This document shows, piece by piece, positions 27,451 to 30,087 of a stretch of 64,000 bases of DNA (position 1 is the stretch's first letter; each line of letters opens with the position of its first letter). The DNA is taken from the NCBI RefSeq assembly GCF_015223355.1, contig NZ_JADFFK010000001.1, forward strand, positions 310,001 through 374,000, in the 5' to 3' direction. The DNA is from Salipiger mangrovisoli (lineage in GTDB: Bacteria > Pseudomonadota > Alphaproteobacteria > Rhodobacterales > Rhodobacteraceae). The translations under genes were made by a program, and so were the position numbers. The notes below the pieces were generated by a model. That model was not told the DNA's origin and did not search any database. It worked only from the letters and a program-made list of their open reading frames with translations.

Positions 27451-29541
27451 ATGAGCCAGCGCCCCGAGGCCCTGTGGCCGCTCTTTGCCGAGCTGAAGAC
27501 GCTGGACGGCGTCGGCCCCAAGACCGCCCTGGCGATGGAGGGGCTGGATGTCGTCGCGCCGCGCGATCTGCTGCTCACCCTGCCGCATTCGGTCATCGAC
27601 CGCCGCCCGCGCGCCTCGGTGCAGGGCGCCGATCTGCCAGGCACGGTGACGGTCGAGGTGCAGGTGCTGCGCCACATGCCGCCCGCCGTGAAGGGGCGAC
27701 CCTACCGCATTCAGGTCGAGGACGCCGAGACCACCTTCCAGCTGGTGTTCTTCCATGGGCGCGCCGATTACCTGACCCGCGTGCTGCCCGAGGGAACGCG
27801 CCGCCTGGTCTCGGGCAAGGTGGAATTCTTCGACGGGCTGGCGCAGATGGTCCATCCCGACCACATGCTGCCGCCCGAGGAGGCGCACACCCTGCCGCTC
27901 TTCGAGCCGGTCTATCCGCTCACCGCCGGGGTGACGCAGAAGCTGATGGCCCGCGCGGTGGCCGGGGCGCTGACCCGCGCCCCCGAACTGGCGGAATGGA
28001 TCGACGGCCCGCTGAAGGAGCGCGAGGGCTGGCCTGACTGGCACGCCGCGCTCGAAGCCGCCCATGCCCCCGATGGCATGGCAGCACTGACCCCCACGGC
28101 CCCGGCCCGCGCCCGGCTCGCCTATGACGAACTGCTGGCGCATCAGCTGACCCTGGGCCTCGCGCGGATCAACCGCCGCCGCGGCAAGGGCCATCCCACC
28201 ATGGGCGACGGGGCGTTGCGCCGCCGCGTGCTCTCGGCGCTGCCGTACCGGCCCACCGGCGCGCAGCTGCGCGCCATGGACGAGATCGCCGAGGACATGG
28301 CCGCCGAGAGCCGGATGAACCGCCTGTTGCAGGGCGACGTCGGCGCGGGCAAGACGCTGGTGGCTTTCATGGCGCTGCTCATCGCGGTGGAAGCGCGCGG
28401 GCAGGGCGTGATGATGGCGCCGACGGAAATCCTCGCCCGCCAGCACATGGAAGGGCTGCAGCCGCTGGCCGAGAGCGCCGGGGTGGTGGTCGAAATCCTC
28501 ACCGGGCGCGACAAGGGGGCTGAGCGCAAGGCCAAGCTGGCGGCGCTGGCGGCGGGCAACATCCACATCCTCGTCGGCACCCATGCGGTGTTCCAGGATG
28601 ATGTGCTGTTCAAGGACCTGCGCCTTGCCATCGTCGACGAGCAGCACCGCTTCGGCGTGCGCCAGCGGCTCGAGCTCGGGCGCAAGGGCGCGGCCGCGGA
28701 CGTCCTCGTGATGACCGCGACGCCCATCCCACGCAGCCTCGCGCTGGCGCAATACGGCGACATGGACGTCTCGGTGCTCGACGAGAAGCCGCCGGGGCGC
28801 AAGCCGGTGCAGACCGCACTTCTCTCCACCGAACGCATGGGCGAGGTGGTCCAGCACCTGCGCAAGGCCGTCGCCGAGGGGCGGCAGGCCTATTGGGTCT
28901 GCCCGTTGGTCGAGGAAAGCGAGGTCTCGGACCTCTCCTCCGCCGAGGAGCGCTTCAAGCGCCTGCGCGCCGAGCTCGGCGAGGGCGTCGTGGGGCTTGT
29001 GCACGGCCAGATGCCGCCCGCCGAGAAGGACGCCGCCATGGCGCGCTTCGTCGCCGGGGAGACCAAGGTGCTGGTCGCCACCACGGTGATCGAGGTCGGG
29101 GTGAACGTGCCCAATGCCTCGATCATGGTGATCGAGCGGGCCGAGATTTTCGGCCTTGCCCAGCTGCACCAGTTGCGCGGCCGCGTCGGGCGCGGCGCGG
29201 CGGCCTCGACCTGCCTGCTGATGTACCAGCCGCCGCTGGGCGAGAGCGGCATGAAGCGGCTCACCACCCTGCGCGAGACCGAGGACGGCTTCCGCATCTC
29301 CGAGGTCGACCTGCAGATGCGCGGCGCGGGCGATCTGATCGGAACGGCGCAATCCGGCCTGCCGCGCTTCAAGGTGGCGGATCTGGAAAGCCAGGCCGGG
29401 CTCATGGCGATCGCCCAGAGCGACGCGCGGCGGCTGCTGGCGGAGGATCCCGACCTCTCGACGGATCGCGGCAAGGCGGCACGGATGCTGCTCTGGCTGA
29501 TGCGGCAGGACGAGGCGATCAAGCTGATCAGCGTCGGCTGA
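27451..29541 (+). CDS. recG: ATP-dependent DNA helicase RecG
   Basis: A 696-residue superfamily 2 helicase that regresses stalled forks and processes Holliday junctions. The N-terminal wedge/OB domain is followed by motor motifs: Q-like RPTGAQLRAMDEI, Walker A GDVGAGKT, DEQH box in IVDEQHRFGV, TATPIPRSLAL, and the C-terminal TRG-type region QLHQLRGRVGRG. The length is normal. It directly follows ligA, and a terminator comes 47 bases after the stop, so the transcript probably ends here. Confidence 0.96.
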   Translation: MSQRPEALWPLFAELKTLDGVGPKTALAMEGLDVVAPRDLLLTLPHSVIDRRPRASVQGADLPGTVTVEVQVLRHMPPAVKGRPYRIQVEDAETTFQLVFFHGRADYLTRVLPEGTRRLVSGKVEFFDGLAQMVHPDHMLPPEEAHTLPLFEPVYPLTAGVTQKLMARAVAGALTRAPELAEWIDGPLKEREGWPDWHAALEAAHAPDGMAALTPTAPARARLAYDELLAHQLTLGLARINRRRGKGHPTMGDGALRRRVLSALPYRPTGAQLRAMDEIAEDMAAESRMNRLLQGDVGAGKTLVAFMALLIAVEARGQGVMMAPTEILARQHMEGLQPLAESAGVVVEILTGRDKGAERKAKLAALAAGNIHILVGTHAVFQDDVLFKDLRLAIVDEQHRFGVRQRLELGRKGAAADVLVMTATPIPRSLALAQYGDMDVSVLDEKPPGRKPVQTALLSTERMGEVVQHLRKAVAEGRQAYWVCPLVEESEVSDLSSAEERFKRLRAELGEGVVGLVHGQMPPAEKDAAMARFVAGETKVLVATTVIEVGVNVPNASIMVIERAEIFGLAQLHQLRGRVGRGAAASTCLLMYQPPLGESGMKRLTTLRETEDGFRISEVDLQMRGAGDLIGTAQSGLPRFKVADLESQAGLMAIAQSDARRLLAEDPDLSTDRGKAARMLLWLMRQDEAIKLISVG

Positions 29542-29588
29542 TCAGGGCAGCCCAGGCTAACCGGCTGAAAAAATTTACGTTCTTCAGG

Positions 29589-29620
29589 AGCCGGAGCACG
29601 CTGACGTGCTCCGGCTTTGT
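29589..29620 (+). terminator. Rho-independent terminator of ligA-recG
   Basis: AGCCGGAGCACG, loop CTGA, CGTGCTCCGGCT: a perfect 12-pair stem followed by TTGTT. It separates recG from the LexA-box gene downstream. Confidence 0.85.
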
Positions 29621-29655
29621 TCGTTCCGCACCTGCATTCTCATGTGTTCACAAAT

Positions 29656-29670
29656 GTTCTCAAAAAGTTC
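29656..29670 (+). promoter_or_regulatory. Putative LexA (SOS) box, GTTC-N7-GTTC
   Basis: GTTCTCAAAAAGTTC matches the alphaproteobacterial LexA consensus GTTC-N7-GTTC exactly. A third GTTC at 29646-29649 is one base off register. The site lies in a non-coding, AT-richer leader between the recG terminator and the 39-codon gene. By composition I estimate about one chance match per 64 kb over both strands, so position rather than rarity is the argument. Confidence 0.5.
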
Positions 29671-29786
29671 TTTACTCGAATCGGATCGCATGAGAACAAA
29701 AGGGCAACAAGAGAACACGCAGATCACGCACCGACATCACACACCGACATCACGCAAAAGACAGCACGCACAGAGGGAACGCCAAG

Positions 29787-29906
29787 ATGATCGACACCAT
29801 CCGCACCACCATGAGCCGCTCGAACACCACCCTGGTCACCGACATGATCGGTGCCGTCTCGCTGATCGTCATCCTTGTCGGGGCGCTGCATCTGCCGCTG
29901 CTCTGA
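29787..29906 (+). CDS. Small membrane protein, 39 residues, possible SOS gene
   Basis: A 40-codon frame with an AGAGGGAA ribosome site about 9 bases before ATG. The protein starts MIDTIRTTMSRSNTTLVTDM and continues as a hydrophobic helix of about 17 residues (IGAVSLIVILVGALHL) ending at PLL-stop. This is a polar N-terminus with one C-terminal transmembrane segment. I recall similar short proteins in other Rhodobacterales, but cannot confirm a family. The LexA-type box 117 bases upstream suggests induction by DNA damage. Caulobacter SidA, a LexA-controlled small membrane protein that blocks division, is a functional precedent only; no sequence similarity is claimed. A terminator follows. Confidence 0.65.
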   Translation: MIDTIRTTMSRSNTTLVTDMIGAVSLIVILVGALHLPLL

Positions 29907-30050
29907 GTTTTCGACTTCCTGCCTGCGGTCTTGCCCCGGGTGCCGCCCGCATCACTGTCCCGATGCACCGCATTGTTTCCCCAGCTCCGGGTCGCCTGAT
30001 CCCCGGACATGCACATCGGCATCCCCTAGGGTTCACAAGACACGCCACTG

Positions 30051-30087
30051 CCGCCGCCTCCCATCCCCGGAGTGCGGCGGTTTTTTT
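30051..30087 (+). terminator. Rho-independent terminator after the 39-residue gene
   Basis: CCGCCGCCTCC pairs with GGAGTGCGGCGG (one bulged base) and is followed by seven T at 30081-30087. It lies about 145 bases after the small gene. Confidence 0.85.

Follow-up and report, generated by a model that had tools for sequence, protein, structure and literature searches.

Downstream of recG in Salipiger mangrovisoli lies a short unit that we read, with a probability of roughly 0.57, as an SOS transcript under LexA control that encodes a SidA-like membrane protein inhibiting late division and carries a structured RNA at its 3′ end. The reading builds on an operator whose sequence and arrangement are conserved, coding constraint on the small gene, restriction of the protein to one family, covarying RNA stems and a terminator, together with a single helix predicted for the protein. 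From these features we infer LexA binding, induction by DNA damage, membrane topology, the divisome target and the role of the RNA.

Layout of the locus

The window, that is, the whole stretch of 64,000 nucleotides that was analysed, contains recG at 27451–29541, with both box A and the small open reading frame (ORF) downstream of it. The first-pass annotation had described a GTTC-N7-GTTC site at 29656–29670, a 39-codon gene and a ribosome site ahead of that gene, and all three are present: the site is an exact match, the gene is an ATG reading frame at 29787–29906, and the ribosome site, read from the sequence, is of the GAGG type. It had passed over a further half-site at 29646–29649, a second box at 29694–29708 and a conserved 3′ region at about 29919–30087. 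The features of the locus are as follows.

29583–29624, forward strand: hairpin, possible recG terminator, with a T-run of only TTT (fold −26.4 kcal/mol, z −5.77)
29646–29649, forward strand: additional GTTC half-site that forms an array with box A, N6 ahead of it (from the sequence; counted at offset −10 in relatives)
29656–29670, forward strand: box A, GTTCTCAAAAAGTTC, an exact GTTC-N7-GTTC and candidate LexA-type operator (present in 84 of 88 loci found by protein similarity and in 1 of 441 control windows)
29671–29676, forward strand: TTTACT, probable −35 element (TTTAC in most relatives)
29694–29708, forward strand: box B, GAAC-N7-CAAC, candidate second LexA-type operator, one mismatch from GAAC-N7-GAAC
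29787–29906, forward strand: small ORF, ATG start, 39 codons plus stop; predicted N-terminal K/R-bearing helix, then transmembrane helix to the C terminus
29919–29927, forward strand: conserved CTGCCTGCG, marking the 5′ boundary of the 3′ RNA (CTGCC(T/C) counted in relatives)
29928–30041, forward strand: 3′ RNA, with stem P1 (29928–29933 with 30036–30041) enclosing hairpin P2 (covariation in relatives)
29949–29953 with 29962–29966, forward strand: P2, within the 3′ RNA, with loop TGTCCC at 29956–29961
30051–30087, forward strand: terminator of the unit, CCGCCGC ... GCGGCGG followed by T7 (z −4.39)

Of the recG terminator that had been proposed ahead of the box, the hairpin stands; it is strong but is followed by only three Ts, which makes it a plausible yet weak terminator. 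It is not general among relatives, in which the box usually starts close behind recG. A consensus promoter scan of the same strand gave no promoter and no standard −10 element near TTTACT; in relatives, the −35 element also occurs as TTGAC (G001, G101 and G037) or TTGACA (G085). Box B is a perfect GAAC-N7-GAAC in G001. The terminator at 30051–30087 is absent from the output of a consensus terminator scan for the window.

A composite operator conserved in relatives

The first-pass annotation had allowed that the box might be a chance match and had made its position the main argument. Counted by itself, the box is indeed at chance level: the window holds one exact GTTC-N7-GTTC against 1.37 expected, and genome-wide there are 119 exact sites, compared with 104 for a reversed control pattern. 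The box alone therefore proves nothing, and conservation, which replaces position as the main argument, carries the case. Among 88 loci found by protein similarity alone, 84 have GTTC-N7-GTTC within 260 nt upstream of the ORF, whereas 1 of 441 control windows does, and on this comparison we reject a chance origin. These loci come from 88 different genomes out of 175 with the ORF (30 best single-sequence matches, 16 from the profile search, 3 others and 39 lower-scoring ones). The count leaves aside four further genomes in which the locus lies near a contig end (G028, G147, G159 and G160), and those four carry the box too; it also leaves aside G219 and G448 from the class-wide search. The homologue search had been proposed at the outset, with the reading staked on conservation of both box and peptide; both are conserved, the peptide in 175 of 198 family genomes.

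The box does not stand alone. It is joined to TT(T/G)AC in 76 of the 88 protein-found loci, a triple GTTC array is present in 72, and a GAAC-N7-(C/G)AAC of the box B type occurs in 75 and in one of the 441 control windows drawn from these loci. Variants account for three of the four box-less loci: G037 has an N6-spaced GTTC array beside TTGAC, G120 an N6-spaced GTTC pair and G085 a TTGACA with GAAC-N6-GAAC. The fourth, G157, a draft in which LexA was not detected, has no box variant.

A scan of named genomes for a longer box, GTTCTNANAAAGTTCTTTAC, gave at least 117 stretches. Two of them, L070 and L076 (Muribaculaceae and Butyrivibrio), were dropped as chance matches in other phyla; the remaining 115 listed stretches belong to Rhodobacterales genera or to alphaproteobacterial or Pseudomonadota drafts. 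The small ORF lies behind the box in 113 of these 115 (78 + 35), and the other two stretches end just past the box. Detailed measurements cover 80 of the at least 117 stretches (78 once L070 and L076 are removed), the other 37 being scored for the ORF and recG only. In the 78 measured loci, the ORF starts 59–119 nt after the start of the box. The consensus of 77 promoters reads GTTC.CaaATGTTCTYAaAAAGTTCTTTACa-N11-a.aTGAGAACAAA...gcAACa, in which positions 0–19 are fixed by the search pattern. Extra GTTC half-sites, one helical turn apart, appear at −10 in 65 and at −20 in 23 of the 78 named loci. Three elements make up the operator: an array of GTTC half-sites, a TTTAC or TTGAC element, and GAAC-N7-(C/G)AAC as the second box.

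Among the listed named loci, recG lies upstream in 112 of 113 testable cases (75 + 37; two loci begin too near the box). The distance from the end of the recG match to the start of the box is 5–545 nt in those 112 listed loci, and is at most 56 nt in 62 of 75 and 32 of 37 of them. The exception is L126, from Loktanella sp. DSM 29012, in which the promoter, the small ORF and a 3′ region with the same motifs lie beside a holC-like gene rather than recG. This suggests that promoter and ORF can move as a unit.

Probable control by LexA

The half-sites of the operator are those of the alphaproteobacterial LexA regulon (GTTC-N7-GTTC), shared with the lexA and recA promoters of the family. Of 28 lexA promoters examined (2 of 30 were not orientable), 27 contain GAAC-N7-GAAC and 12 have a third half-site. 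GAAC-N7-GAAC also occurs in 28 of 30 recA promoters, 27 of which have a GTTC within the preceding 60 nt. The S. mangrovisoli genome itself has an exact box before lexA, in the form GTTC-N6-GTTC-N7-GTTC. In a survey of 20 stretches chosen from its 119 sites, an exact box also lies ahead of an imuB-type polymerase gene, and at two UvrD-type helicase genes such boxes precede or overlap the gene start (L031, L032 and L035); these three genes are usable as SOS controls.

Two side observations concern boxes elsewhere. In lexA promoters (L169–L198), the third GAAC half-site is spaced by N6 or N7, one helical turn, as in the small-ORF promoter. At L033 (G000:C22:251440) in the S. mangrovisoli genome, a perfect GAAC-N7-GAAC lies 21 nt before an MT-A70 methyltransferase gene, possibly a further SOS member or a prophage gene.

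A site matrix trained on 66 sites (28 from recA and 38 from lexA) placed its best site within the roughly 8-kb locus in the small-ORF promoter in 74 of 78 loci, a result that is partly circular for box A because the loci were picked by the box. The score of box B is free of this circularity, and its median is reached by 1.5e-5 of background positions.

The operator departs from the classical LexA regulon in its N6/N7 array upstream of the −35 element and its inverted second box. The spacing of the extra upstream half-site, N6 in 65 of 78 loci against N7 in the classical box, would suit a different GTTC-repeat regulator, with the gene encoding a membrane protein that is induced by stress but does not belong to the SOS response. 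The distribution of lexA bears on this reading from both sides. A search of the 198 family genomes found 14 without LexA, one of which, G122, carries a lexA truncated at the end of a contig. Once G122 is counted as having LexA, 5 of 13 LexA-less genomes lack the ORF, compared with 18 of 185 LexA-bearing ones (Fisher p 0.009), a statistic that ignores relatedness and incomplete assemblies and for which two of the ORF-missing genomes were deduced. The tendency of ORF and LexA to vanish together, like the shared half-sites in lexA and recA promoters, counts against another regulator. Yet of eight ORF-bearing genomes without detected LexA, seven keep the box (G028, G147, G150, G158, G159, G160 and G196), G157 alone being without it. 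LexA-less genomes are mostly incomplete drafts, and five of the seven box-keepers have at least 200 contigs or are less than 65% complete, so that lexA may be absent from them by chance. G150 is the harder case: rated 100% complete in three contigs, it has an intact operator and a umuDC-like pair, and a UmuD-like protein is all that was detected in place of LexA (L263, L295 and L303). Its exact recA box is gone, which says little because G184, which has LexA, has lost its exact box too. Taken together, we consider a regulator other than LexA distinctly improbable; LexA control of the small-ORF promoter, as judged from sequence, is well supported if not proven.

A family of very short predicted membrane proteins

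A single-sequence search of the 198 same-family genomes gave matches in 161 at a loose limit of E 10, and a profile of 73 sequences (A1) raised this to 175 Rhodobacteraceae genomes at E 0.01, seven of these matches lying at E 1e-4 to 1e-2, where they may be noise. In G001, G023 and G101, which were scored as ORF-less, a GTTC box is followed by a small, divergent ORF. A class-wide profile search of 385 genomes gave no credible match outside the family: the five full-length strong matches are all inside it, and those in the other 32 of 37 genomes, which we discarded, are partial (E 0.003–0.1) and mostly in long reading frames. The search itemises few of the genomes without a match, so it gives no count of family members among them. 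The first-pass annotation knew of no family for the protein, in agreement with the absence of any match in Pfam and NCBIfam; PDB likewise gave none, PLSDB plasmids held no copy, and the best match in PHROGs (E 0.054, to a family of unknown function) does not amount to membership.

The proteins are 39–40 residues long. All 73 sequences share D19 and G22, and L26, L34 and P37 are near-invariant. Substitutions fall on the three codon positions as 1115, 661 and 2163, and pN/pS is 0.35 across 105 related, non-independent pairs; the small ORF is under purifying selection. The C-terminal membrane helix proposed by the first-pass annotation agrees with the hydrophobicity of the alignment columns and with structure prediction, which gives one helix over residues 2–35 (mean pLDDT 83.5). 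Two N-terminal positions hold K or R in 65 and 59 of the 73 sequences, and no listed column after D19 contains a charged residue. The positively charged end of a membrane helix faces the cytoplasm (the positive-inside rule), which would place the N terminus there. Column hydrophobicity, charge and the predicted helix together predict a very short protein with a single transmembrane helix, ending a few residues past the conserved proline at the helix end and bearing no LysM or other extracellular domain.

The type I toxin peptides TisB and DinQ are likewise small, single-helix and SOS-induced. The protein could be a depolarising peptide of this kind, lowering the membrane potential and promoting tolerance with no block of the divisome; its size, predicted single helix and SOS-type control all fit, DinQ being reported as an SOS-regulated single-transmembrane peptide of E. 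coli (PMC3567139). The leader of the small ORF is short, however, the 59–119 nt between the start of the box and that of the ORF leaving no room for a long inhibitory leader, and the invariant D19 and G22 with the near-invariant P37 suggest a specific partner. We regard a depolarising peptide as quite unlikely.

Among known SOS proteins, the closest in type is SidA of Caulobacter crescentus, which is LexA-controlled and interacts with FtsW and FtsN. One study describes it as an inner-membrane protein of 29 residues that interacts with FtsW (PMC4211646); filamentation of a Caulobacter lexA mutant depends on sidA, according to another (PMC12700426). Like SidA, the small protein is alphaproteobacterial, stands behind an SOS-type operator and is very short and, by prediction, an inner-membrane protein. 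Unlike SidA, it has about 40 residues, is restricted to one family, lies beside recG and is followed by a structured 3′ RNA. Compared by description, it shares the SidA type and is not assignable to the SidA family. With YneA, SosA and ChiZ, SOS division inhibitors of Gram-positive bacteria, it shares a transmembrane helix and, here, SOS-type control; YneA and ChiZ carry an extracellular LysM domain and SosA an extended helix, whereas the small protein ends with its membrane helix. In one study, YneA binds transmembrane segment 7 (TM7) of FtsW through its membrane helix, and SidA, SosA and ChiZ are modelled, with low confidence, on the same segment (PMC13396833).

A single conserved helix does not by itself point to the divisome, and division inhibition by the small protein is put forward here by analogy. 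The protein might instead be SOS-induced with another membrane target, such as cell-wall elongation, a transporter or a protease: the sequence names no divisome target, and the gene stands alone after recG. We judge this unlikely, given that the analogous one-helix SOS proteins of other phyla act on late division and that literature searches restricted to an open-licence collection showed no other SOS division inhibitor for the Rhodobacteraceae.

A structured RNA behind the gene

The region downstream of the ORF is conserved as well. TGTCCC occurs within 140 nt past the stop codon in 70 of 87 protein-found loci, against 3 of 521 control windows, and CTGCC(T/C) within 70 nt in 66 of 87, against 41 of 521. 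A GC-rich hairpin followed by T4 lies behind the ORF in 74 of 87, a count made without control windows.

From these divergent 3′ regions, automatic RNA alignment produced no usable consensus structure in sets of 68, 30 and 12 sequences or in one set of 14; a second set of 14 yielded mainly the outer stem. For this reason, we used swapped-partner tests, in which the arms of a stem are paired within and between genomes, and a model built from 10 sequences. Five of 79 rows without a complete end were dropped from the 3′ sets, then 6 of 74 that were near-duplicates or contained N; the tests used the 49–67 sequences with both anchors, or 32–35 for P3 and P4. The arms of P2, which has TGTCCC as its loop, scored 5.43 with their own partner against 4.45 with that of another genome (0 of 5,000 permutations, n = 67), and control windows farther out showed no preference for their own partner (4,084 of 5,000). 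The outer stem P1 behaved similarly (6.28 against 5.48, 0 of 5,000, n = 65; control 513 of 5,000), as did P4 (1 of 5,000, n = 35), and hairpin P3 was unsupported (1,513 of 5,000, n = 32). The named loci repeat the result for the first two stems (0 of 2,000 each, n = 52 and 49), as a set that partly shares its genomes with the protein-found one and so is not independent of it.

The covariance model R1, built from 10 similar sequences, matched 42 of 69 other picked sources at E 0.1, all 42 starting between −2 and +77 nt from the ORF stop; it missed 27, among them the window and L001, which is the same locus. Applied to 11 whole genomes with 150 first-look candidates scored in each, it matched five, once each and always at this locus, and missed six; one of the 11, G073, had supplied a training sequence. 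An alignment fitted to the model is biased towards the structure; in it, 85.8% of cells pair, against 70.7% when shuffled and 38–48% when slid. The outer stem has changes on both sides in all 11 pairs, and the share of paired cells in helix 3 is only 46%. The copy in the window is divergent, its fold barely better than shuffles (z −1.04), with the arms of P1 and P2 complementary. Across relatives, the 3′ region (about 29919–30087 in the window) is conserved, with covarying stems and a terminator.

Bacterial small RNAs of the 3′ UTR class form the 3′ end of an mRNA, with conserved stems and their own terminator. The RNA described here has the same three traits, as far as sequence tells. It has no match in Rfam, where searches with six loci and the window gave nothing above noise and scores far below gathering. 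It may regulate its own message or function as a small RNA; any role in trans is a guess.

Proposed mechanism and significance

In the mechanism we favour, LexA would bind the array of GTTC half-sites flanking the promoter, with box A and the extra half-site just upstream of the −35 element and box B downstream, and repress transcription. DNA damage would activate RecA and thereby LexA self-cleavage, releasing a short mRNA that runs from the promoter to the 30051–30087 terminator. This mRNA would encode the inner-membrane protein of 39–40 residues, its N terminus in the cytoplasm, one helix in the membrane and its C terminus at the periplasmic face. On the model of SidA, the protein would stall the late divisome (FtsW/FtsI/FtsN), so that division waits for repair, and the folded 3′ end of the mRNA would either tune the lifetime of the message or act as a separate small RNA. 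A bolder version, which we offer tentatively as a possibility, is a locus with two SOS products, a division-blocking peptide and a 3′ small RNA, imposing arrest at both membrane and mRNA levels; exposed C-rich motifs (CUGCCUG, UGUCCC and UUGCCUC) would then base-pair with mRNAs or bind a protein.

Searches of an open-licence literature collection found no paper that treats this gene or this RNA; subscription journals, supplements or a Rhodobacter LexA study may hold one, and a paper on Dinoroseobacter (PMC6473078) does not mention recG in its main text. The locus is a direct candidate for an SOS division checkpoint of the Rhodobacteraceae, a large and ecologically important family. Its protein offers a natural ligand of roughly 40 residues, in more than 100 variants, for a probable divisome protein, and with the structured RNA that follows the ORF, this would be a dual-function SOS transcript.
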